Of a stretch of 64,000 nt of DNA, positions 6,497 through 51,828 are shown in pieces. The position numbers and the translations under genes were made by a program. The notes beneath the pieces were generated by a model. It was given only the letters and a program-made list of their open reading frames with translations, had not been told where the DNA came from and ran no database searches. Origin of the DNA: Desulfovibrio aminophilus DSM 12254 (GTDB lineage Bacteria > Desulfobacterota > Desulfovibrionia > Desulfovibrionales > Desulfovibrionaceae). The DNA is taken from contig NZ_KE383876.1 in assembly GCF_000422565.1 (NCBI RefSeq), positions 96,803-160,802 on the forward strand. Reading direction: 5' to 3'. Each line of letters begins with the position of its first letter. Positions within the stretch are counted from its first letter, which is position 1.

Positions 6497-7495
6497 CTAC
6501 TTCAGCTTCACGGCCTGCATGAGCTTCACGTTGAAGTAGCGGATGTCGTCCATGCTGTTGGGCAGCTTGCCCGCCTCGAAGGCGTTCTTCAGGTCCAGGA
6601 TGGCCTCCTGGATGGTGTGCGTGGGCTCGAAGCCGAGCTCGTCCCTGATCTTGCGGCTGGAGACGTGGTAGCTGCGGTTGTCGTTGGTGGGGGTGGTCTC
6701 CACCGGGATGTCGCCGCCCAGGGTCTCGCGCACCATCTGCGCGATCTCCTTGACCTTGTAGTTCTCGTAGCCCACGTTGTAGATCTTCTTCTGGATCTTC
6801 TTGGGATCCTGCTTGAGCATGAACAGGTACACGTCGCACATGTCCTGGATGTGCAGGTTGGGGCGCTTCTGCTCGCCGCCGAAGACCGTGATCTTGCCCT
6901 TGTTGATGGCGTGGTTGGTCAGGATGTTCACGGTCAGGTCCAGGCGCATGCGCGGGGAGTAGCCGCACACGGTGCTGGGCCGGATGGTGGTGACGATGAA
7001 GTCGTCGGTGGCGGCCTTGTTCAGGTATTCCTCGCACATGGCCTTGTACTTGGAGTAGTCGGTCAGCGGTTCGAGCGGCAGATCCTCGGTGACCTCGGGA
7101 TCGTCCTTCAGGCCGTACACGCTGGAGCTGGAGGCGTAGATGAAGCGCTTCACCCCGCTCTTCTTGGAGATGTCCACCAGGGGCAGGAAGGCGTCGTAGT
7201 TGATGGAGCGGGCCAGGCTGGGGTCCAGCTCGTAGCTCGGATCGTTGGAGATGCAGGCCAGGTGGATGACCGCGTCGCAGCCGGGGAGGTGCTTCTCAAG
7301 CAGGGAGGCGTCGCGCAGGTCGCCCTTGATCTCCGTGAGGTTCGGATGGCCCTTGCCGCCCAGGATCACGTCGTCGCCGTAGAGGTACAGGTCCAGAACC
7401 TTCACCTTGTAGCCCGCGTCCAGCAGCTGGGGAACCAGCAGCGCGCCCACGTAGCCCGCGCCGCCGGTGACGAAGATGGTCTTGATCTCGCTCAT
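6497..7495 (-). CDS. NAD-dependent epimerase/dehydratase (extended SDR)
   Basis: The 332 residues form a typical extended short-chain dehydrogenase. The NAD loop GGAGYVG is at 11-17, the catalytic serine region is SSSSVYG near 122-128, and the catalytic pair is YSKYK at 147-151. These enzymes act on nucleotide-linked hexoses or heptoses as 4-epimerases, 4,6-dehydratases or reductases. The gene heads the tightly spaced downstream block (18 nt to the HAD-kinase fusion). A 122-nt gap upstream separates it from the deoxyhypusine-synthase-like gene. It is the most conserved sugar-nucleotide enzyme of the cluster, but which reaction it catalyses cannot be read directly. Confidence 0.9.
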   Translation of the reverse strand: MSEIKTIFVTGGAGYVGALLVPQLLDAGYKVKVLDLYLYGDDVILGGKGHPNLTEIKGDLRDASLLEKHLPGCDAVIHLACISNDPSYELDPSLARSINYDAFLPLVDISKKSGVKRFIYASSSSVYGLKDDPEVTEDLPLEPLTDYSKYKAMCEEYLNKAATDDFIVTTIRPSTVCGYSPRMRLDLTVNILTNHAINKGKITVFGGEQKRPNLHIQDMCDVYLFMLKQDPKKIQKKIYNVGYENYKVKEIAQMVRETLGGDIPVETTPTNDNRSYHVSSRKIRDELGFEPTHTIQEAILDLKNAFEAGKLPNSMDDIRYFNVKLMQAVKLK

Positions 7496-7617
7496 GCTCG
7501 CTCACCTGTCCTGTTTGGTTGCAGGCCGGGAAGCCTCCCCGGCCCTGTTCACGTGCCGCGGCGGAACGCCCGCCGAAATCCGAACCGACGCCGCGCCCGG
7601 AAAACCCGCGCGGCGGC

Positions 7618-8592
7618 CTACATTCCCTGAAGCGCCGTCCACAGCTCCGGCACGCTCTCGTCGTGCCGCGCCCGACAGTAGAAGCTCTCGCCGCCGTCGG
7701 CGACCGTGCGCACGAGCATGGTCTTCCAGGGGCGGAAATAATAGGCCGCGCTGCCCTTGGGGGCCTCGGCCCGGGTGTCCTCCGGCAGGTCGTGCAGGTC
7801 GCAGACCAGGGTGGTGAACCGGCGGATCTCCCGTCCCTCGCGGGCGGCGACGTTGCGCGCCATGGCCAGGGCCTTGAGATAGACCTCCGGGGCCATGACC
7901 GCGCTGCCCAGGTTCATGACCACCCCGCCCTCCAATCCCTCGACCTCGGCGGCGTAGATGAGGAAGTCCCGATGGCTGGCCGAGCCGAAGGCCGCGCCGC
8001 TGAAATTCGGATGCTGGTGGATGATGTCCTGGCCGATGCCCACGTGCACGGTCACGGGAATGCCCAGCTCCCAGGCGCGGGCCAGCAGCGAAAGATTCTT
8101 GTGCGGATACGCGCCCCGCGCGATCTCCCGGCCCACGGCCTCGCCCAGGCCCAGGCCCTCGGCGTCCCCGGCGGCCACGATGTCGTTGATCCGTCCGGTC
8201 TCCGTCCAGAGCCCGAACTCGCCGGCCTTGATGTAGCGCGCCACGCTCTCCGTGGTGGCCCCGATGAGCGCCAGCTCGAAGTCGTGGATCACGCAGGCCC
8301 CGTTCACGGCCACCAGGCTCACGAATCCCCGCCGCAACAGGTCGAGGAGGTAGGGCTGCACCCCGCTGCGCAGCACGTGCGCGCCCATCATGAGCACCCG
8401 CGCCGCGCCGCGCTCCCGCGCCGCAGCCAGGCGGGCGGCCACGCCGGCCAGCGCGGGCCGCACGGAGGCCGTCGGGGTTGGGGCCGTCCGCGCCGGGCAG
8501 GAGGCCGGGACGAAATCCAGGTCGTGGGCGCGGTCCGCCAGGGGCTGAAGCTTCAGCCGCGTCAGGTCGAAGAGTCTGTGGCGCGTGGGCAT
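7618..8592 (-). CDS. Deoxyhypusine-synthase-like protein
   Basis: The 324-residue sequence follows the layout I know for the deoxyhypusine synthase fold. GAHVLRSG lies near residue 70, a segment reading NGACVIHDFELAL comes next, then VHVGIGQDIIHQHP, and a late block reads NLGSAVMAPEVYLKAL. In eukaryotes and archaea this family transfers the aminobutyl group of spermidine to eIF5A. Bacterial members include homospermidine-synthase-like and uncharacterised proteins. I do not see the usual lysine-bearing block of the true enzyme at the C-terminus, so the classical reaction is doubtful. The gene stops 3 nt before the start of the adjacent HldE-like gene's coding end, showing shared transcription. 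A role in the sugar pathway is inferred. Confidence 0.6.
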   Translation of the reverse strand: MPTRHRLFDLTRLKLQPLADRAHDLDFVPASCPARTAPTPTASVRPALAGVAARLAAARERGAARVLMMGAHVLRSGVQPYLLDLLRRGFVSLVAVNGACVIHDFELALIGATTESVARYIKAGEFGLWTETGRINDIVAAGDAEGLGLGEAVGREIARGAYPHKNLSLLARAWELGIPVTVHVGIGQDIIHQHPNFSGAAFGSASHRDFLIYAAEVEGLEGGVVMNLGSAVMAPEVYLKALAMARNVAAREGREIRRFTTLVCDLHDLPEDTRAEAPKGSAAYYFRPWKTMLVRTVADGGESFYCRARHDESVPELWTALQGM

Positions 8593-8595
8593 GGC

Positions 8596-10119
8596 CTACT
8601 TCAGGAGCGAGGTCAGATATTTCTGGGTGCTCTGGCGGTCGACGGCCTTCTTGTTGCCGATGACCCCCACGGCCAAGCCGCCCACCACGTTGCCGAGAAG
8701 CGCGGTGATCTCCGCGGGCGCGTTCAACGCGGCGGCGAGCGCGGTGACGGAGAAGAAGGCGTCGCCGGAGCCGATGCGGTCCACGACCTTGATGGCGAAG
8801 GCGGGCACCTCCACGAAGCCGCCGCCGGGCGTGAAGACCATGCACCCCCGCTTGCCGCGCGTCACGGCCAGGGCCCGGCAGCCGAGGCGTTCGGCGGCCT
8901 GGAGCATCAGGGGCATGAGCGGGCCGGAAAGATCCCGGTCCTCCAGGCGCATCTCCGGCTCCGCCAGGCTCACGTAGTCCGCGCGCTGGTAGCGGCCGAT
9001 GGTGTGGTAGCCCCGGTTGCCCGCGTTGGCCTGGGTGTTCACGGCCAGGAACCGCGCCTTGCGCTCCAGCATGCGCCGCATGGCCGGGGAGATGGTCCCG
9101 TGGCCGAAGTCCGCCGCGATGACCAGGTCGTAGTCGGCCGCCTCGGCCTCCACCGCGGCGACGAACTCCGCGTCGTCGGCGGCGGGCAGGCCGGAGTCGT
9201 CCATGTGATAGATTTCAAGGAGCTTGTTGAAGGTGTAGCCTTCCAGGTAGCGGCGCTTCTCGATGGTGGGCGCGCCCTTGTGCAAGGCCAGATGCGGCCG
9301 CACCGAGGGGGCCAGGCTCTCGCGGATGAAGCCCTCGCGGCCGCCCAGCTCGCCCATGACGGAGAACAGCCGCACGTCGGATACGTAGCTCGACAGGTGG
9401 TTGGCCACCGCCAGCACGCCGCCCGCGAACAGGTCGCTCGAGCCGTGCTTGAGGGCCAGCACCGGCTCCTTGCTGGAAGTGCCGAGAACGCCGCAATAGT
9501 GGTAGTCGTCCAGGATCGTGTCCCCGATGACCAGCACCTTGAGATCGCGCATGGCGTCCAGCACGCCCTGCACGTCGGCCTCGGAGTAGCGGCGGCGAAA
9601 CAGGCTCAGGTAGTCCTGGACCTCCTCGGGGAAGGCCGAGAGAAAGCGGTTGATGAGGTTCGTGGAGCTGAAGACCACGTCCTTGCTGAAGGCCATCTCC
9701 GCGCCGACCTCGCGGGCCACGCGCTCCTCGGCCTGGAGCTTGCCCGTGGGGTCGCTCTGGGCGTCCTTGAAGTCGGAGCCCTTGCAGTACACGTTCGGGC
9801 GCAACAACCGGAGCGTCTCCTCGGCCGTGGGGTACTCGTTGATCGCCACGTAGTCCACGCAGTCCAGGCTGGCGATGGCCTCGGCCCGCAGGCTCTCGTT
9901 GAACGCCGGGCGGTGCGGCCCCTTGTCCACGTAGCGGTCCGGGCTGATGGTCACCACCAGCACGTCGCCCATGGTCCGGGCCTGGCGCAGGTAGCGGATG
10001 TGCCCGATGTGCAGGAGATCGAAGCAGCCGTGGCAGAGGACGATCTTCCTGTCCGCCCGGATTCCGTTCAGGACTTCGACGAGCCTATGAAGGGGAAGGA
10101 GCTTGGAATGAGCAGTCAT
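8596..10119 (-). CDS. HldE-like bifunctional sugar nucleotidyltransferase/kinase, reversed domain order
   Basis: The 507-residue protein starts with an RfaE-type cytidylyl/adenylyltransferase domain (residues about 20-150) carrying the HIGH signature at 37-40 and a KGSDF-type motif near 117. It ends with a PfkB/ribokinase domain (about 185-507) whose catalytic Asp is in GSGDAF at about 450-455. In E. coli HldE the kinase comes first and the adenylyltransferase second; here the order is reversed. ATG 10119 is chosen because GAGG lies 8 nt upstream; the longer frame is not supported. The enzyme probably phosphorylates and then nucleotide-activates a heptose-like sugar. Its neighbours (transketolase, phosphatase/kinase fusion, epimerase) support a dedicated activated-sugar pathway. 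Confidence 0.85.
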   Translation of the reverse strand: MTAHSKLLPLHRLVEVLNGIRADRKIVLCHGCFDLLHIGHIRYLRQARTMGDVLVVTISPDRYVDKGPHRPAFNESLRAEAIASLDCVDYVAINEYPTAEETLRLLRPNVYCKGSDFKDAQSDPTGKLQAEERVAREVGAEMAFSKDVVFSSTNLINRFLSAFPEEVQDYLSLFRRRYSEADVQGVLDAMRDLKVLVIGDTILDDYHYCGVLGTSSKEPVLALKHGSSDLFAGGVLAVANHLSSYVSDVRLFSVMGELGGREGFIRESLAPSVRPHLALHKGAPTIEKRRYLEGYTFNKLLEIYHMDDSGLPAADDAEFVAAVEAEAADYDLVIAADFGHGTISPAMRRMLERKARFLAVNTQANAGNRGYHTIGRYQRADYVSLAEPEMRLEDRDLSGPLMPLMLQAAERLGCRALAVTRGKRGCMVFTPGGGFVEVPAFAIKVVDRIGSGDAFFSVTALAAALNAPAEITALLGNVVGGLAVGVIGNKKAVDRQSTQKYLTSLLK

Positions 10120-27760: not shown

Positions 27761-28552
27761 TTAAAGATTCATTTTTTTCTTGCGGTAGGCTATAACTGCC
27801 TGCTTACTAATTAAGTTGTACAATGAATTCAATGAGGCTGGCAGCTCCACCCTGGTGGAGTTGAACACTTCAACATCACTTTCGATTGGGCTTCTATACA
27901 AAAAAACTCTTATATCATCACCATTTGTCACCAGATAATAAGGCGTTCCAAGAAACATCGCATAGCTTCTCGCCTGGCTGACATGATCTGCTATTTTTTT
28001 CCCGACATTTTTTGCTTCAACAACAAGTAGTGCACTATCTTTACACCTATTAGCGCCATCAAAGAGAACAAAATCTGCTTCTGTTTTTGTCTTTCTAACT
28101 CCTACGACTTGTTCAACAGGATATCCATCAGCACGATCATCTTCAGAATAGCCTAAATGTTCAAGAAGAGGGATGACGAATCTAATCTCGACTTCTTTTT
28201 CGCTGTGGAAAATTTTATTCCCTATCGAAGACGCCCACGAATTCATTAATGCCTTATTACTAATACTTTCTTCGTCAATTTGTGAAGCTGTAAAATCTTT
28301 TACTGGGAGATTCGGGTCAGTTACGGAAAGGACAACCCAATCATCTCTCTCCAGGTCAACAAGCAGAGGAGACATCAATATGCCGACATCAGAAAAGCTT
28401 GATTGTATGGCTTCAACCCAATGTTTTTGTCGTGTCTTGTGGCCGAACATTTTAAGCAATGTTTTCAGCAAGACCCTTTTTGATTTCTTAGGTGATTCCG
28501 CAATTGCGTCGCGGATCGCTTCGGAAATTTGAAGATAGTCGACATCCCCCAT
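27761..28552 (-). CDS. HsdR_N-like nuclease-domain protein of foreign base composition
   Basis: This 263-residue protein is distinctly AT-rich compared with both neighbours. Its C-terminal half has the order seen in the N-terminal domain of type I restriction HsdR subunits: KEVEIRFVIPLLEHLGY, then KTEADFVLFDG, then LLVVEAKNVG. This gives a PD-(D/E)xK-like set (E/D, ExK). The N-terminal half is helical and unrecognised. No specificity or methylase gene is nearby, so it is an orphan, possibly a defence protein or a remnant. The start at 28552 is preceded by GGAGG. The base composition points to recent horizontal gain. Confidence 0.65.
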   Translation of the reverse strand: MGDVDYLQISEAIRDAIAESPKKSKRVLLKTLLKMFGHKTRQKHWVEAIQSSFSDVGILMSPLLVDLERDDWVVLSVTDPNLPVKDFTASQIDEESISNKALMNSWASSIGNKIFHSEKEVEIRFVIPLLEHLGYSEDDRADGYPVEQVVGVRKTKTEADFVLFDGANRCKDSALLVVEAKNVGKKIADHVSQARSYAMFLGTPYYLVTNGDDIRVFLYRSPIESDVEVFNSTRVELPASLNSLYNLISKQAVIAYRKKKMNL

Positions 28553-28599
28553 GACCGGCCTCCTGGTACGAAAGGATATTACAGCTTAGTTTATCTGCA

Positions 28600-28628
28600 T
28601 TGTTATCCTCCCGTCCTCGGTGGATCAA
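28600..28628 (-). promoter_or_regulatory. Promoter candidate for the HsdR_N-like gene
   Basis: TTGATC and TAACAA lie 17 nt apart on the minus strand, about 50 nt before the gene. A second AT-rich box (TAATAT) lies between it and the start but lacks a good -35 box. Confidence 0.35.
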
Positions 28629-28742
28629 GGAAAACATGAACTTCACCGACAGCAATTCCGCCGTGAGCCGGCGGACGCACTGAAATAAACAGCACGGAGA
28701 CGGGCTCCGCCCCCGCGCTTCGCGCTCCGTCGGGGAATGCCG

Positions 28743-29825
28743 TCAGGCCTTCTGGCCGCCTTCCTTGGCCGTGAACGCGGCGATGATCTTGTCCATGGCG
28801 GCGATGAACAGGTCCACGCTGTATCCGGCGATGAAGGCCAGGGCGAAGGGCGTCAGCGAGGCCAGCGGCGAGGCCGCGTCGCGCAGGAGGCCGAAGCCGC
28901 CGATCACCAGCCCCGCCAGGGCTCCGGTGAACAGACGGATTCTGTAGACCATGTTCTCTTCCGTGGAGTAGGACACGGCGCCGATCTCCTTGGCCAGGGA
29001 GCGCAGCACGAACAGGCAGGAGCCGAGCCAGCCGAAGAGCAGCGGCAGGACATACAACTCAAGCACCTCCAGGGCCAGGATGGTGTCCAGCCGGTTCCGG
29101 CCCAGCTCCTTGTGCGGGGGCTCCTTGACGGGATTCCGGCCGTCCCCGGCTTCGATCCGGTCGTCGGCGGTCCAGAAGGTCAAGACCTTGAAGACGGTCT
29201 TCCAGACCATGTTCCACTTTTTCAGCGAATCATTGCGCAAGGACAGCTCGTCGTTGAGCGCTTCGAGCCGCCCGGCGCGATCCTCGGCGTCGGCCCCCGA
29301 AGCGTCGCCGGAGATCTTCTCCTGGATTTCCTGTATGCCGGTCCGCAATTCCGTGACCTGGGCGTTGAGCCGCGACCCCACGCCCCAATAGGCCTGCAGG
29401 AGCAGGACGGAAACAAGCGCCACGGAGGCCCACCACTTGTAGCGCCGGATGGCCTTGTCCGAGGCCCTCCGCGGGCCGAACAACGTCTCCCGCAGGCGCG
29501 CGCAGAGGCCTCTCCTGGGCAGGACCGAGGTGATCGCCTCGATGCTCTCGGTGGTCACGGGCTGGACCGCGCTCGTCAACTTGTCGTAGGCGACCCAGAA
29601 CTCCACCTGCTGGGGGAACGTCGCGGGGTCGTTGGTGTTCAGGCAGAGCAGCTTCCCGGAGGCGACGATCTTCTCGATCACCTCCTTGTCCAGTTCCAGT
29701 CCCTGGGACGCGGCATAGGCCAGCAGCCTGGCCGCCGCATGCACGGACTGCTCCAGGGTGAATCGATCCCGGACGGCCGGTTGCTCCCCGCCCGGACACG
29801 GCGTCGCGGCTTGCTCCTCGCTCAT
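28743..29825 (-). CDS. Uncharacterised membrane protein
   Basis: I do not recognise this 360-residue protein. Residues 1-110 are soluble and contain a YKWWASVA start to the first membrane helix near 120-140. A charged, coiled-coil-like stretch lies at about 140-225. The C-terminal third has three hydrophobic segments, one with LYVLPLLFGWLGSCLFVLRS and one with ASLTPFALAFIAGYSVDLFI. No catalytic motif is seen. It stands alone: AT-rich DNA with the HsdR_N-like gene lies on one side and a divergent drug transporter on the other. The start at 29825 has a GGGGG ribosome-binding region a few bases before it. Confidence 0.75.
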   Translation of the reverse strand: MSEEQAATPCPGGEQPAVRDRFTLEQSVHAAARLLAYAASQGLELDKEVIEKIVASGKLLCLNTNDPATFPQQVEFWVAYDKLTSAVQPVTTESIEAITSVLPRRGLCARLRETLFGPRRASDKAIRRYKWWASVALVSVLLLQAYWGVGSRLNAQVTELRTGIQEIQEKISGDASGADAEDRAGRLEALNDELSLRNDSLKKWNMVWKTVFKVLTFWTADDRIEAGDGRNPVKEPPHKELGRNRLDTILALEVLELYVLPLLFGWLGSCLFVLRSLAKEIGAVSYSTEENMVYRIRLFTGALAGLVIGGFGLLRDAASPLASLTPFALAFIAGYSVDLFIAAMDKIIAAFTAKEGGQKA

Positions 29826-42515: not shown

Positions 42516-42671
42516 GCTTCAGGCTAACCCGCCCGGCAATCCGCCGCAAGAGTCCTCCGGGTTCGCCGCGGCTGCTTTCCGGCGCGTCGTTCTGATTTTT
42601 TTCGCTCCGCCCTTTGCGCTTGCGCCTTCGTTGGAGTAATGCGGAAAAGAATCAGGATTCCCGGAGCAGAC

Positions 42672-46162
<3,491 letters not shown>

Positions 46163-46166
<4 letters not shown>

Positions 46167-46327
46167 GCCCGGACCTGCGCTTCGGCGCGTTCACCTTCGC
46201 TTCCGCGCCGGACCCGGCGGACCCCAAGCGGCTCATCCTCTCCGTCTTCCGGGACGGCAGCCCCTTCAAGGGCTTACGGGAAGGCCAAAGACGATTTCGG
46301 CGTTTCGCTTTTCTGAAGAGTCCCTAA
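46163..46327 (+). CDS. Small ORF translationally coupled to the histidine kinase
   Basis: The ATG overlaps the kinase TGA by 4 nt (ATGA), so translation could restart here. The 54 residues start MSPDLRFGAFTFASAPD and show no family I know. The last 20-odd codons come from a copy of the local hairpin repeat: a CCCTTCAAGGG-like hairpin, and a TAA stop inside the AGTCCC-TAA-GGGACT hairpin. The gene may be the truncated start of a longer protein cut off by the repeat and the AT-rich island that begins just after it. It may also be an accident of composition. Confidence 0.4.
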
Positions 46328-46333
46328 GGGACT
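46255..46333. repeat. Hairpin repeat at the left edge of the AT-rich island
   Basis: Degenerate copy of the repeat family: CCCTTCAAGGGCTTACGGGAAGG, then CTTTTCTGAAG and the AGTCCC/GGGACT hairpin with a TAA in its loop. It marks the change from GC-rich to AT-rich sequence. Confidence 0.55.
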
Positions 46334-46367
46334 TCTCCACGCCCCGTAGACAGATCACAGGACTCTA

Positions 46368-46396
46368 TTGACGACATACTTTTTAGCAGATATAGT
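46368..46396 (+). promoter_or_regulatory. Near-consensus sigma70 promoter of the RiPP precursor gene
   Basis: TTGACG and TATAGT lie 17 nt apart, with a predicted start about 15 nt before the ATG at 46418. This is the best-matching sigma70 promoter in the window. Confidence 0.75.
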
Positions 46397-46417
46397 TAAA
46401 CAAAATGGAGCACGAAT

Positions 46418-46537
46418 ATGAGATACGAAAAGCCTAAAATTCTGGCCCAAGGCACCGAAAGGATGGCTGATTGCCGTCCCAACAGCAAGCCGAGCGGGAG
46501 GCCCTGTAACCCTCCAGGACCTCGCGGCGGCAAATAA
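46418..46537 (+). CDS. Putative RiPP precursor peptide
   Basis: This 39-residue ORF is short but well equipped: GGAG 7 nt before its ATG, a strong promoter just upstream, a hairpin after it and a radical SAM/SPASM enzyme as the next gene. The N-terminal part has YEKP at residues 3-6 followed by Ile8 and Gly12. This is the YxxP-type leader pattern recognised by RRE domains in lasso peptides and other RiPPs. The tail, from Cys19, has two cysteines (19 and 30), five prolines between residues 21 and 33, one more at 35, and Gly-Gly-Lys at the end. It would be the modified part. I infer leader cleavage near residue 18. I do not recognise the precursor family. Confidence 0.7.
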   Translation: MRYEKPKILAQGTERMADCRPNSKPSGRPCNPPGPRGGK

Positions 46538-46608
46538 GTTCTGCCCTCCCGTCTGTGCGAGGGGATTTAAGAGATTTGGCTTCTCGGGAACTCATTGGTA
46601 ACCCGCGT

Positions 46609-46670
46609 AACAATACCGCTCAAAGTTCAATGGCAAGATGACCATTGGCTTGAGCGGTATTGTTATTATA
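46609..46670 (+). terminator. Long hairpin between precursor and radical SAM gene
   Basis: AACAATACCGCTCAA at 46609-46623 pairs perfectly with 46650-46664 (15 bp). Inside the loop CAATGG and CCATTG pair again. TATTATAA follows. It probably terminates most transcripts after the precursor and lets some read through to the enzyme, giving more peptide than enzyme. Confidence 0.8.
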
Positions 46671-46818
46671 AAATAACTACACCTTACAGCTCAAGCATTT
46701 CACAGCGTTGTCATTTTAATGCAATTCAAATCCAACCACCAGTTATGGTCCTCAAACAACCAATAAGTCAGTCATTAACACACCCATGACATGCCACAAT
46801 TAGTTAGGATATGGCGCA

Positions 46819-48294
46819 ATGTTTTTCAAAATAAAGTCAAATATCATTTTCAGAAACCATAATTCGTTCGGATATATAACAGATAATAGAAATTTCGGCT
46901 ACACAAGCAAGAATCACAATGAACGTCACGTCGGCGACAAAATATTATCTGAAAGCGGGGCGGTATTTTTTTCTGCTTTGGATAGAAAGCCAAAATCTAT
47001 CGATGAAATTGTACTAAAAATTAGTAAACAATTTTCAAACTCTAAAATCCTGACGATTAAGAACGATGCTATTGAATTTTATCGTACGCTTGAACATGAC
47101 GGATTCGTTGTTTCTGGTAAAACACTACACGAATGCGAAAATAATGATATAAAATTTTCATATAAAGTATTTGAGCCAGAAATACTGTACAATGCAAACG
47201 CATCTGCGAACTCATATAAATCTACACAAGATTTTTTTGAAGAACATTTCAAAAATAGACCACAACTAACAAATTTGCACATTGAGATCACAAGCAAATG
47301 CAACGAAAGATGCTTACACTGCTATATACCTCACGAAAATAAAACCAGCGAAATGGACAATGAATTATTTCATAATATAATACGACAATGCGCGAATATG
47401 AAGTTGCTGCATTTGACATTGAGTGGCGGCGAACCAATGTTACACAAAAGTTTTTGCGATTTTTTAAAAAAGTGCAGAGAGCACAATTTTTCTATAAATA
47501 TTCTTAGTAATCTCACATTGCTTAATGATAAAATCGTTAGAGAAATGAAAAAAAATCCTTTATTGGGGGTTCAAGCCTCATTATATTCCATGAACCCGAG
47601 CATCCACGATGAGATAACTCAAAAAAAAGGAAGTTTTGAACAAACAAAAAAGGCAATCTTGAAGTTAGTCGAAAATGACATCATCTTGCAAATTAGCTGC
47701 CCAGTAATGAAACAAAATAAAAACTGTTACCAAGATGTTATAACATGGGCGAAGAAGCACAATATCCACGCCGGAGATGATTACGTCATCATAGCAAGAT
47801 ACAATCATACAATACAAAATACTAATTGCCGTCTATCAATTGCCGAAGTTAAAAAAATGGTCATCGACAAAATAGCCAGCAACTCAAAATATTTTGAGCA
47901 AATAGAGAAGGAAACCAAGGAGAATAAGACACGTACTCCAGACGATTTTGTTTGTAGTGTTTGCAGTTCTTCTATTTGTATATCAGATAATGGAAACGTA
48001 TATCCTTGTGCTGGTTGGCAGGATTATATCATTGGTAATGTGAAAGAGACTTCTTTAAACGACATTTGGAACCATTCTGAGGACATAAAATATCTAAGGT
48101 CGTTGAAGAGACGTAATTTCCCAAAATGTGTCCACTGCGTTGACAAAGATTTTTGTACCATGTGCATGGTCAGAAATGCGAACGAAAATCCAGATGGTGA
48201 CCCGCTGATAGTCAATGAATACTTTTGTAATATCGCAAGACTCAACAAAGAGATATTTTATGAATTGAAGAATAAGCATACGTGTTCGTCATGA
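46819..48294 (+). CDS. Radical SAM/SPASM peptide maturase with N-terminal PqqD-like domain
   Basis: The 491-residue enzyme has three parts. Residues about 18-100 look like a PqqD/RRE domain, which binds the leader of a precursor peptide. The radical SAM core has cluster ligands Cys161, Cys165 and Cys168 in CNERCLHC and GGEP at 203-206. The C-terminal SPASM part has many cysteines (379, 382, 387, 397, 437, 440, 446, 449, 470) for auxiliary Fe-S clusters. Such enzymes form thioether or C-C cross-links in RiPPs. AGGA lies 9 nt before the ATG. The gene is strongly AT-rich, so it was probably acquired by transfer. The precursor ORF lies 281 nt upstream, across a hairpin. Confidence 0.85.
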   Translation: MFFKIKSNIIFRNHNSFGYITDNRNFGYTSKNHNERHVGDKILSESGAVFFSALDRKPKSIDEIVLKISKQFSNSKILTIKNDAIEFYRTLEHDGFVVSGKTLHECENNDIKFSYKVFEPEILYNANASANSYKSTQDFFEEHFKNRPQLTNLHIEITSKCNERCLHCYIPHENKTSEMDNELFHNIIRQCANMKLLHLTLSGGEPMLHKSFCDFLKKCREHNFSINILSNLTLLNDKIVREMKKNPLLGVQASLYSMNPSIHDEITQKKGSFEQTKKAILKLVENDIILQISCPVMKQNKNCYQDVITWAKKHNIHAGDDYVIIARYNHTIQNTNCRLSIAEVKKMVIDKIASNSKYFEQIEKETKENKTRTPDDFVCSVCSSSICISDNGNVYPCAGWQDYIIGNVKETSLNDIWNHSEDIKYLRSLKRRNFPKCVHCVDKDFCTMCMVRNANENPDGDPLIVNEYFCNIARLNKEIFYELKNKHTCSS

Positions 48295-48570
48295 CCCGCA
48301 CCAAGTTTATGTAGCGGGCTTATGTTGGTCTGTAGTCCGAGTGAACTCGTCCCTCTCTATCGCAAACTAGTCAGCTTTGAATGGCCGATGAGGGCAGAGA
48401 ACTAACTCAATCTAGACTAGCCCACATTACAACACATACATCCTGACCACAATTTTGCTCCAATTCTTTTCCCATGTAGGATTAGTCGTGGTTAATTTGG
48501 ATTAATGCATTGTATTTGACTTTTTATTGATACAAATTTTCTCAAATTATTCCGGCGCGATTTAAACGGA
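48295..48570. other. AT-rich intergenic right end of the island
   Basis: This stretch between convergent genes has no clear gene. A weak CCCGC/GCGGG hairpin follows the radical SAM stop, and a 27-codon frame (ATG near 48322) lacks a ribosome-binding site. I see no direct repeats or integrase remnant that would define the island boundary. GC content returns to high at about 48550. Confidence 0.5.
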
Positions 48571-51500
48571 TTATGAAGGGCCGGAGGCCTCGAAGACCCG
48601 CTGGTCGAGGTAATAGAGCAACGGAACCACCATGCGCGAGAAGAGCGTGGCCGCCACCTCGCCCGCCAGGAGCGAGATGGCCAGTCCCTGGAAGATGGGG
48701 TCGAAGAGGATCACGAAGGCCCCGGCCACCACGGACAGGGCGGTCAGGAGCATGGGCCGGAAGCGCACGGTCCCGGCCTCGATGACCGCGTCGTGCAGGC
48801 TCTCGCCGTGGGAGCGGCGCAGCTCGATGAAGTCCACCAGGATGATGGAGTTGCGCACCACGATGCCCGCCCCGGCGATGAAGCCGATCATGGACGTGGC
48901 CGTGAAGAAGGCCCCGGCCAGGGCGTGGGCCGGGACGATGCCGATGAGCGAGAGCGGGATGGGCGACATGATGGCGATGGGCGTGGTGTAGGACCGGAAC
49001 CAGCCCACCACGAGAATGGCGATGAGCACGAGGACCACGGCGAAGGCCAATCCCATGTCGCGGAAGACCTCGTAGGTGATCTGCCATTCGCCGTCCCACT
49101 TGAGGGACCAGCGGTCCCCGGGCGCGGGCTCCCCGGCGTAGACCCGGGTGAGCGGGTCGGTGCGGCCCGGGGCCTGCCAGACGCCCTTGCCCTCGGCGGC
49201 CAGTTCGTCCAGGGCCGCGTCCACCCGCAACATGCCGTAGACCGGGCTTTCCTCGGCCCCGGCCATGTCGGCGGTGACGTAGACCACGGGCCGCAGGTTC
49301 TTGTGGTAGATGGCCGGGGGCACGACGCGCTCCTCCACCCGGGCCACCTGGCCCAGGGACACGGGCCGTCCGCCCTCGCCGCGCAGGGGGATGGACGCCA
49401 GATCCGCGCCGGTGATGCGCCGGGACAGGGGCAGGCGGACGATGATCGGCACGTCCTCGCGGGCCGAGTCGTCGTGCAGCAGCCCGACTTCCTCCCCGCC
49501 CACGGCGGCGGCCACGGCCCGGCGGGCCCGCTCGGGCTCCACCCCGCTCAAGAGCGCCTTGTCCGTATCCACCACGATGCGCCGTTCGGCCCGGGGGCCG
49601 GTGACGTACCAGTCCACATCCACCACGCTCGGAGTGGCGGCCATGACCGACTTGACCTGCTCGGCCAGGCGCAGGCGGCCCTCCGGGTCCGGGCCGTAGA
49701 TCTCGGCCACCAGGGTCTGGAGCACGGGCGGCCCGGGCGGAACCTCGACCACCTTGAGCCGCGCGCCGGTGCGCGCCGTCGCCTCGGCCAGCTCCCGGCG
49801 CACGCGCCCGGCGATCTCATGGCTGGAGGCCTCGCGCTCGCCGCGCGGCAGGAGGTTGACCTGGATTTCGGCCTGGTCCGGCCCGCCGCGCAGGTAGTAG
49901 TGGCGCACGAGGCCGTTGAAGGAGAACGGGGCCGAGGTTCCGGCGTAGACCTGGAAGTCCGTGACCTCGGGCTGCCGGAGCAGCACCGCGCCCATCTCCT
50001 GGCAGGCGGCCGCGGTGTTCTCCAGGGCCGTGCCCTCGGGCATGTCCAGCACGAGTTCGAACTCGGCCTTGTTGTCGAAGGGCAGCATCTTCACCAGCAC
50101 CCCGCGCAGGGGGAACAGGCTCAGGGCCGCCACCAGCAGCAGGACCACCAGCCCCAGGAAGCTCCAGCGCCAGGCCGGACGCTCCAGGAGCCGGGTCATG
50201 AGCGCGGTGTAGAGGTGCGTGAGCCGCCCGCCCTCTTCCCCCTTGTGCCCGGCGTCACGGTCCAGGACGTGGAAGGAGGTCCAGGGCGTGACCGCGAAGG
50301 CCACGGCCATGGACAGGAGCATGGCCACGGACGCGCCGATGGGCATGGGCCGCATGTACGGGCCCATGAGCCCGCCCACGAAGGCCATGGGCATGATCGC
50401 GGCGATGACCGTGAAGGTGGCCAGAACCAGGGGGGCGCGGACCTCGTTCACCGCGTCCACGATGACCTCGGCGAAGGGGCGGCCCCGGGACTCGGGCAGC
50501 CGCGCGCGGCGGACGATGTTCTCCACGTCCACGATGGGGTCGTCCACCAGGATGCCGATGCAGAAGATGAGCGCGAAGAGGGTCACGCGGTTGAGCGTGT
50601 AGCCCATGAGCCAGTAGGTGGCCAAGGTCACGGCCAGGGTCACGGGCACGGCCACCATGACCACGAAGCCCGCGCGCAGGCCCAGGAACACGGCCACGAT
50701 GGCCCCCACGGAGAGGGCCGCGATGAGCAGGTGCTCCAAGAGCTCGTTGGACTTGTGCCGGGCCGTCTCGCCGTAGTCGCGCACCACGGTCATGCGCACG
50801 TCGTCCGGGATGATCCAGCCGCGCAGGGCCTCCACCCGGCGCAGCACTTCGCGGCAAAGGACGTCGGCGTTGACCCCGGCGCGCTTGGCCAGACTCAGGG
50901 TCACGGCCGGGAACACGCGGCCCGGGGCGTCATGGATGCCCTTGGCGGCGGCCGCCGGGCCCGGAGTGAAGAGCACGTAGTCCGAGGGCTCGTCGAAGCC
51001 GTCCGAGACGCGGGCCACGTCCGCGAGATACACCGGACGGCCGTCGCGCACGGCCAGGACCACCCGCGAGACGTCGGCGGCCGTGCGCAGGAAGCTGTCC
51101 AGCCGCACGTTCACCGAGGCCCCCTCGCGGGTCAGGGCCCCGCCCACGGCGGCCTGGTTCTGGGCCCGCAGGGCGTCGCCCACGTCCAGGATGTCCAGGT
51201 TCAGGTTGCGCAGCCGCTCCGGGTCCACCTCCACGGTCAGGCCGCGCCTGCGGCCGCCGATGAGCGTGACCTCCGAGACCCCGGGCACGGTCCGGGCCGT
51301 CTCCGCCGCCTCGGCCGCCACCTGGCGCAGGGTCCGGCCGTCCCGGCCCTCGCCGTGGAAGGTCAGGGCCAGCACGGGCACGTCGTCGATGGAGCGGGGC
51401 TTGAGAATGGGCTCGGAGCAGCCCGGCGGAATCCAGTCCAGGTGCTGGTAGAGCTTGGCGTAGGTCTTGACCATGCTCTTCTCCACGTCCTGGCCCACCA

Positions 51501-51828
51501 GGAAGCGCACCACGGCCAGACACCGGCCGTCCGAGGAGGTGGTGTAGACGTACTCCACCCCGGGAATCTCCCAGAGCAGCTTCTCCATGGGCCCGGCCAC
51601 GCGGGCCTCGATCTCCCGGGGCGTGGCCCCGGGCATGGAGACCATGACGTCGATCATGGGCACGATGATTTGCGGTTCCTCCTCGCTGGGGGTCTTCACG
51701 ATGGCGAAGACGCCCAGGAACAGGGACGCCAGGATGATCAGGGGCACGAGCTTGGAACGGACGAAGGTCGCCGTGACCCGGCCCAGGAGGCCGTGGGAGT
51801 GGTCGCGGGGGGCGCGGTCCTCGGCCAT
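48571..51828 (-). CDS. RND-family efflux transporter permease
   Basis: The 1085-residue inner-membrane pump has the RND layout of twelve helices and two large periplasmic loops. The conserved helix with ILVDDPIVDVENIVRRARL carries the proton-relay Asp residues. Helix blocks in the second half include LSLIGIVPAHALAGAFFTATSM and VVRNSIILVDFIELRRSHG. It is of the HAE1-like rather than heavy-metal type, because the metal-site motif is absent. It is 6 nt after the adaptor gene stop. The pair would need a TolC-like outer-membrane channel, not present here. Substrate unknown. Confidence 0.9.
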   Translation of the reverse strand: MAEDRAPRDHSHGLLGRVTATFVRSKLVPLIILASLFLGVFAIVKTPSEEEPQIIVPMIDVMVSMPGATPREIEARVAGPMEKLLWEIPGVEYVYTTSSDGRCLAVVRFLVGQDVEKSMVKTYAKLYQHLDWIPPGCSEPILKPRSIDDVPVLALTFHGEGRDGRTLRQVAAEAAETARTVPGVSEVTLIGGRRRGLTVEVDPERLRNLNLDILDVGDALRAQNQAAVGGALTREGASVNVRLDSFLRTAADVSRVVLAVRDGRPVYLADVARVSDGFDEPSDYVLFTPGPAAAAKGIHDAPGRVFPAVTLSLAKRAGVNADVLCREVLRRVEALRGWIIPDDVRMTVVRDYGETARHKSNELLEHLLIAALSVGAIVAVFLGLRAGFVVMVAVPVTLAVTLATYWLMGYTLNRVTLFALIFCIGILVDDPIVDVENIVRRARLPESRGRPFAEVIVDAVNEVRAPLVLATFTVIAAIMPMAFVGGLMGPYMRPMPIGASVAMLLSMAVAFAVTPWTSFHVLDRDAGHKGEEGGRLTHLYTALMTRLLERPAWRWSFLGLVVLLLVAALSLFPLRGVLVKMLPFDNKAEFELVLDMPEGTALENTAAACQEMGAVLLRQPEVTDFQVYAGTSAPFSFNGLVRHYYLRGGPDQAEIQVNLLPRGEREASSHEIAGRVRRELAEATARTGARLKVVEVPPGPPVLQTLVAEIYGPDPEGRLRLAEQVKSVMAATPSVVDVDWYVTGPRAERRIVVDTDKALLSGVEPERARRAVAAAVGGEEVGLLHDDSAREDVPIIVRLPLSRRITGADLASIPLRGEGGRPVSLGQVARVEERVVPPAIYHKNLRPVVYVTADMAGAEESPVYGMLRVDAALDELAAEGKGVWQAPGRTDPLTRVYAGEPAPGDRWSLKWDGEWQITYEVFRDMGLAFAVVLVLIAILVVGWFRSYTTPIAIMSPIPLSLIGIVPAHALAGAFFTATSMIGFIAGAGIVVRNSIILVDFIELRRSHGESLHDAVIEAGTVRFRPMLLTALSVVAGAFVILFDPIFQGLAISLLAGEVAATLFSRMVVPLLYYLDQRVFEASGPS

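Follow-up and report, generated by a model that had tools for sequence, protein, structure and literature searches.

A two-gene radical SAM peptide cassette in an AT-rich island of Desulfovibrio aminophilus and its probable horizontal mobility

The stretch of Desulfovibrio aminophilus DSM 12254 analysed here (64,000 nucleotides of contig NZ_KE383876.1, hereafter the window, from a 3.42 Mb genome in 25 contigs) contains a small AT-rich island in which a short open reading frame (ORF) precedes a gene for a radical S-adenosylmethionine (SAM) enzyme. A preliminary description of the sequence had read this island as a compact locus for a ribosomally synthesized and post-translationally modified peptide (RiPP), with a strong promoter, a 39-codon ORF of leader/core appearance, a long hairpin and a maturase composed of RiPP recognition element (RRE), radical SAM and SPASM parts. 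The AT-rich block is evident: 46340-48570 has a G+C content of 37.6%, whereas the 2-kb flanks have 68.6% and 71.1% and the whole window has 67.6%. The short ORF, at 56.7%, stands above the island as a whole. The features of the locus are:

46275..48572, no strand: AT-rich inserted block, missing at the same site in two congeners (left edge approximate)
46368..46396, + strand: sigma-70-like promoter, TTGACG-17-TATAGT, 10/12 consensus bases
46418..46537, + strand: 39-residue RiPP precursor with leader YxKPxILAQ and core CRPNSKPSGRPCNPPGPRGGK; a homologous ORF lies upstream of 24/24 clade enzymes
46608..46665, + strand: hairpin in the gap between precursor and enzyme genes, with perfect 16-nt arms (46608-46623/46650-46665), containing GCTCAAAGTTCAATGGCAAGA
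46819..48294, + strand: 491-residue radical SAM/SPASM peptide maturase with a PqqD-like (putatively RRE) N-terminus, recognized from Pfam, cysteine conservation and a structure model

The promoter is plausible rather than proven, as promoter-like matches in this region are no commoner than in shuffles (6 vs a shuffle mean of 6.2). A GGAG stands 7 nt ahead of the precursor ATG at 46418. We fetched and examined 24 loci of the window enzyme's clade, a set that is no census: the partial-enzyme locus L064 and plasmid matches H4, H5, H6 and H8 lie outside it, L006 and L066 share a contig, L024 hardly differs from L023 and L025, and it was the core that first led to L058. A small homologous ORF precedes the enzyme gene in every one of them (a first homologous set had given a near-identical ORF upstream in 11/15 loci). 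Enzyme homologues lacking such an ORF, or an ORF lacking conserved residues, had been named beforehand as what would speak against a RiPP locus; we find the ORF upstream and its residues conserved in both leader and core.

The typical peptide of the clade is MxYxKPxILAQSTxxMAxCRPNSKPSGRPCNPPxPxGR, with the core pattern C-x3/x5-P[S/C]GRPC. PSGRPC is present in 23/24 precursors and appears as PCGRPC in L071; the first cysteine lies 5 residues ahead of this motif (3 in L006, L042 and L049), and the core carries two cysteines in 24/24 precursors, with three in L071. Change is biased towards synonymous sites, with synonymous and non-synonymous proportions (pS/pN) of 0.67/0.09 in the core and 0.52/0.22 in the leader over 21 precursor rows (L024, L066, L049 and L071 left out). 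From an enzyme comparison of 19 rows and 171 pairs, the 74 pairs with enzyme identity below 57%, which are not independent of one another, have mean identities of 52.3% for the enzyme, 88.4% for the core and 49.7% for the leader. The conserved upstream ORF, its conserved leader and core and the synonymous-biased change lead us to reject a chance ORF. The precursor matches none of the NCBIfam, Pfam and PHROG models at the limits used.

A sister clade of 8 enzymes, ~38-52% identical to that of the window, has similar leaders and A[AG][GS]C-type cysteine cores in 7/8 loci. The tree splits the two enzyme clades with 100/100 support, each with its own core type (31 rows, without L024, L066 and L050; 11 inner branches unresolved; long-branch warning for L037, L049, L071 and L009). 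Because the leader is kept while the core varies with the enzyme clade, the two genes follow the logic of a RiPP system, and we are confident that the 39-codon ORF and the 491-residue enzyme form a conserved precursor-maturase pair. The sister-family loci L011-L014, L037, L067 and L068, from Spirochaetota and Bacteroidota, have A[AG][GS]C cores with further cysteines, and none of four sister-family precursors matched an NCBIfam model. At sister-clade locus L069, a protein with a sub-threshold PqqD-like N-terminus and no radical SAM match is encoded directly before the enzyme gene (6771-8090 and 8092-9564).

Pfam assigns the enzyme Radical_SAM (6.4e-21, above cut-off) and SPASM (7e-11; 42.7 bits vs a cut-off of 21.5). 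The radical SAM CX3CX2C motif (C161, C165 and C168) and SPASM cysteines 379, 387, 397, 437, 440, 446, 449 and 470 are kept in 27/27 aligned homologues, and C382 of the SPASM region in 24/27. A structure model built from a 17-row alignment has a mean predicted local distance difference test (pLDDT) score of 66.5 and a predicted template-modelling (pTM) score of 0.69, and its N-terminal domain is modelled confidently (block means of 82-94 at residues 1-20 and 41-110, 52-54 between). Of the proposed domain composition, the radical SAM and SPASM parts stand above cut-off, and the RRE part is putative: the PqqD match (E 0.001) falls below its curated cut-off (19.8 vs 23.4 bits), next to a confident N-terminal fold. 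The enzyme reached no curated NCBIfam cut-off among the 25 families listed of 53. A PADLOC viperin match (1.9e-17) was rejected, as it covers only residues 155-302 and the enzyme has peptide-maturase features. The one Rfam hit, within the enzyme gene, is at chance level (E 0.91).

The closest known systems are RiPP maturases. The best Foldseek matches of the model are SuiB, the streptide maturase (7.2e-11, including entries with the bound precursor SuiA), and SkfB (1.4e-8, the second structure family), and SkfB is also the top solved structure by sequence (9.6e-11). With SkfB and the sactisynthases and ranthisynthases AlbA, CteB and PapB which have RRE and SPASM or twitch domains, the pair shares the domain order, its own RRE part being putative, and an adjoining Cys-containing precursor; unlike them, the enzyme scores far below the respective cut-offs (SkfB 57/300 bits, AlbA 60.7/850, PapB 63.8/340), the precursor fits no model, and exporter and immunity genes are missing. 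Identity to SuiB is just 14-16%, the superposition is loose, and the core here has no Lys-Trp pair such as that of streptide chemistry. With prokaryotic viperins (pVip), which are radical SAM enzymes of anti-phage defence, the enzyme has in common only the generic radical SAM domain; it departs from them in its SPASM and RRE-like domains and peptide precursor.

The long hairpin of the preliminary description is well founded: besides its perfect arms, the stretch 46600-46680 folds at -33.9 kcal/mol (z -7.07), with 0/200 shuffles equally stable, while the sequence just 3' of the precursor folds like shuffles (z -0.32). A hairpin in this gap is also common to the clade, in a form from which the window's own long hairpin differs. 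It has a 13-pair stem with 87.8% of cells paired across 18/24 loci (without the window, L024, L042, L048, L049 and L071; L003 and L058 trimmed to the 3' hairpin), against at most 60.1% in slid controls, and has 8/13 pairs with compensatory changes on both sides and a covariation score above 500/500 shuffles. L042, L048, L049 and L071 have gap hairpins of other sequence, and T runs end some of the hairpins (L048, L049 and the plasmid copies). Partial termination or processing after the precursor would be the simplest role for such a structure.

Three of the gaps are long (281 nt in the window, 437 nt in L003 and 266 nt in L058). The GCTCAAAGTTCAATGGCAAGA of the window hairpin recurs in the L003 gap and, in altered form, in L058; AAAGTTCAATGSCAAGA with flanking bases is common to all three (window 46618-46638, L003 gap 537-973, L058 gap 1531-1796) and was not found in the remaining cassette gaps. 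It is possibly a structured RNA or the remnant of an element. Its reading as a widespread element was dropped, as the 31 viral contigs that match it are about the chance number that we estimate for a 17-mer; L058 is the sole known cassette locus among them. No plasmid records resembling the window gap were found.

A conserved hairpin directly 3' of a small ORF, whose proline-rich C-terminus could slow ribosomes, might also suggest that the ORF is a regulatory leader peptide which controls the enzyme gene through the hairpin while the enzyme acts elsewhere. We consider this very improbable. The N-terminal part shows the conservation of a leader and persists in the sister clade beside a wholly different core, and the enzyme has the architecture of a peptide maturase. 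A tight attenuator would also be disrupted by the longer gaps and dissimilar hairpins seen in the window, L042 and L048.

Two properties of the precursor-maturase pair go beyond the preliminary description: the conserved intergenic hairpin and the mobility of the cassette, copies of which lie in Tn3-type transposons, on plasmids, in a phage contig and in an integrase element. In the window itself, the island lies between a PAS/histidine-kinase-type gene (42639-46166) and a convergent resistance-nodulation-division (RND) efflux-type gene (48571-51828), both named by eye. Two genomes of the same genus were sampled, G001 and G002; both keep the flanking genes, the RND gene among them, and lack the cassette, and their sites are empty. 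Likeness to G001 fades at ~46257-46275, which gives an approximate left boundary. The sequence 46163-46274 resembles a small coding stretch of G001, seemingly cut short at the island edge, and G002 has other sequence there. A 26-nt, 81% inverted pair considered as an element end starts at the enzyme start and was taken as chance.

By record title, the hosts are Bacteroidota (including a Kapabacteria metagenome-assembled genome, MAG), Pseudodesulfovibrio, Deferribacteraceae, Oscillospiraceae, a Parcubacteria MAG and Gammaproteobacteria, to which a genome from the phylum of a Treponema MAG and two viral contigs are added. Carriage is patchy: at E 1e-50 or better, and in counts that include the centre genome and some sister-clade matches and come, for the wide searches, from few scored candidates per genome, carriers number 2/99 among relatives, 1/395 in the window's phylum (the window genome itself), 5/344 around a Bacteroidales genome, 2/295 around Pectobacterium, 2/395 around a Bacteroidota genome and 6/247 around Treponema. 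Between unrelated hosts, DNA likeness stops near -330 and +1530 relative to the enzyme start, except among the enterobacterial plasmid copies and between L045 and L046. The small ORF and the enzyme travel with the promoter region and intergenic hairpin and without any other widely shared cargo gene.

Several copies lie within recognizable carriers. On an E. coli IncF plasmid (L023), 49-nt inverted repeats enclose the cassette together with a Tn3 transposase and resolvase, and L024 and L025 each retain one repeat of this type. On a Photobacterium plasmid (L022) it stands between different 55-nt repeats with a TATAT duplication flanking both sides, together with resolvase and Tn3 transposase domains. 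In PLSDB, five plasmid records from E. coli match the enzyme, whereas the L023 cassette had no match in E. coli complete genomes (near mode). On the viral contig L058/L070, the cassette stands upstream of an endolysin gene in the company of terminase, portal and head families, a gene set that we take to be Mu-like. This copy surfaced through the core pattern and then again through enzyme alignment; a search for the enzyme in phage records found none, and a viral scan with the window protein alone gave no match. In L071, three phage-integrase-type recombinases surround the pair. We conclude that precursor and enzyme very probably form a mobile unit that moves across phyla.

RiPP systems are usually taken as antibiotic or signal factories equipped with exporters and immunity. 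The preliminary description had remarked that the island holds no protease, transporter or immunity gene, which is correct, and had guessed at a minimal system. The other loci agree with that guess: among 178 flanking ORFs from 19 loci (without the window, L024, L058, L065 and L071), serine recombinases (4 loci) are the only family found in more than 2 loci, and the pair has no recurrent neighbour for export, peptide cleavage or immunity. This bears on a reading of the product as a common secreted bacteriocin or signal that relies on unlinked host genes for cleavage, export and immunity. Most radical SAM RiPPs of known role are antimicrobial (PMC8326336). The core is short, proline-rich and cationic, slightly like proline-rich antimicrobial peptides. 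Against such a product stand the missing recurrent genes, hosts with very different envelopes, and a core that, unlike most bacteriocin cores, is nearly invariant while the enzymes diverge to ~50%. We hold it to be a possible but unlikely explanation.

The near-fixed core and its two conserved cysteines would suit a peptide that binds metal or resembles a cofactor, conferring metal tolerance on its carrier or assisting a host enzyme; cofactor peptides are strongly conserved, and metal resistance often resides on Tn3 transposons. This we regard as improbable, as the flanks show no recurrent metal gene or dependent enzyme, the patchy presence (a single genome of the window's phylum) is ill-suited to a general cofactor, and the cysteine spacing varies (x3 in L006, L042 and L049, x5 elsewhere).

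Returning to a self-contained RiPP cassette, its chemistry can be sketched from related enzymes. The review PMC8326336 describes RRE domains as binders of leaders and SPASM clusters as possible binders of a substrate cysteine, and attributes alpha, beta or gamma thioethers to enzymes of this kind. By likely analogy, the N-terminal domain would bind the leader, the radical SAM cluster would yield a 5'-deoxyadenosyl radical that takes hydrogen from a core residue, and the auxiliary SPASM cluster would hold a core cysteine, with one or two thioether cross-links around P[S/C]GRPC as the result. The two-cysteine cores of all 24 clade precursors are compatible with sactipeptide or ranthipeptide thioethers, and no more than that; we take thioether cross-linking as the likeliest chemistry, a choice that is evenly balanced. 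The hairpin would probably terminate or process part of the transcript, leaving the precursor in excess over the enzyme.

The role of the product is more tentative. Since the core is near-fixed and exporter, peptidase and immunity genes are absent, we favour a product that might act inside the producer on a conserved target; and since the cassette is cargo and some copies have defence neighbours, the benefit might go to the carrying element, for which a conflict against phages or other elements is the most plausible setting. PADLOC matches flank L004 (HsdM and HsdS), L006 (an AriA-like ATPase), L041 (CARF and a methylase), L046 (LmuB, TIR-like and Orf5/HEC-06-like) and L048 (HsdR, PrrC and type IIG), with less specific matches beside L039 and L040. 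A set of 112 ORFs near cassettes matched 301 PADLOC families, against 31 for a control set of the same size. This neighbourhood of some chromosomal copies is a pointer to the role, not proof of it. Compact, self-contained, found on transposons, plasmids and a phage contig and near defence genes, the pair resembles, purely by analogy, the two-gene toxin-antitoxin or defence cargo of mobile elements, from which it differs in encoding neither toxin, antitoxin nor known defence protein. An intracellular role in phage or plasmid conflict may be suggested, with considerable doubt, and the fuller proposal of a peptide-based intracellular conflict module, carried as two-gene cargo of transposons, plasmids and phages and with a surplus of precursor that the hairpin would set, is more doubtful still.

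That the cassette as a whole is a self-contained, horizontally mobile RiPP system nonetheless seems to us a well-supported reading, and a number of observations count against it or its parts. For the enzyme, these are the sub-threshold PqqD match, the low confidence of the SPASM part of the model and the loose full-length superposition on SuiB (TM 0.38-0.49, root mean square deviation 9-11). No precursor was found at L069 of the sister clade. For mobility, no convincing pair of terminal inverted repeats or element ends was found around the window island, L023 has no 5-bp target duplication, and the Tn3 transposase of L022 is split over two frames (6562-9014; DUF4158 and a DDE part) and looks interrupted; several host records are small MAG contigs, maybe mis-binned (for example L007, 3.3 kb). 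For the defence context, no defence-type neighbour was recognised at the window copy, the tested neighbour ORF of L044 had no PADLOC match, and the detailed PADLOC runs covered 20 ORFs in 8/13 loci, chosen by eye from 112. The comparison of the two 112-ORF sets counts families rather than proteins and is inflated by many-model proteins such as restriction enzymes; its control was drawn randomly from 163 ORFs (those >1500 aa left out) in 13 stretches of nine genomes, on contigs shared with cassettes. Finally, modification of the peptide and the expression and activity of the pair are predictions.

No RiPP is known to serve as a mobile intracellular defence or addiction cassette. KPSGRPC, SYAAGC and GRPCNPP have no mention in 5.39 million open-licence papers of PubMed Central, and neither has PSGRP in combination with three other terms; figures, supplements and subscription papers lie outside this scope. 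RiPPs have been linked with phages in ocean data, and such a cassette is not described in the accessible part of that study (PMC11118758). The cassette is apparently an undescribed minimal, mobile radical SAM RiPP system with a near-fixed core. None of the libraries searched contains a family model for the peptide, and it is unseen in the (incomplete) plasmid gene tables, so that the system has probably been overlooked. A single peptide with a single enzyme is enough to make up a unit common to Tn3-type transposons, conjugative plasmids, a phage and the chromosomes of distant hosts, and the near-unchanging core across these carriers suggests that the target is conserved and that the carrier benefits.

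Two smaller observations concern neighbouring DNA. In two Bacteroidales, a homologous tetratricopeptide repeat (TPR) protein closely follows the cassette (L045 4248-5762 and L046 7603-9396, on the - strand of the loci), and that of L045 also has DUF2971. Within the window, a second drop in G+C lies at 28001-29000 (0.506 vs ~0.69).

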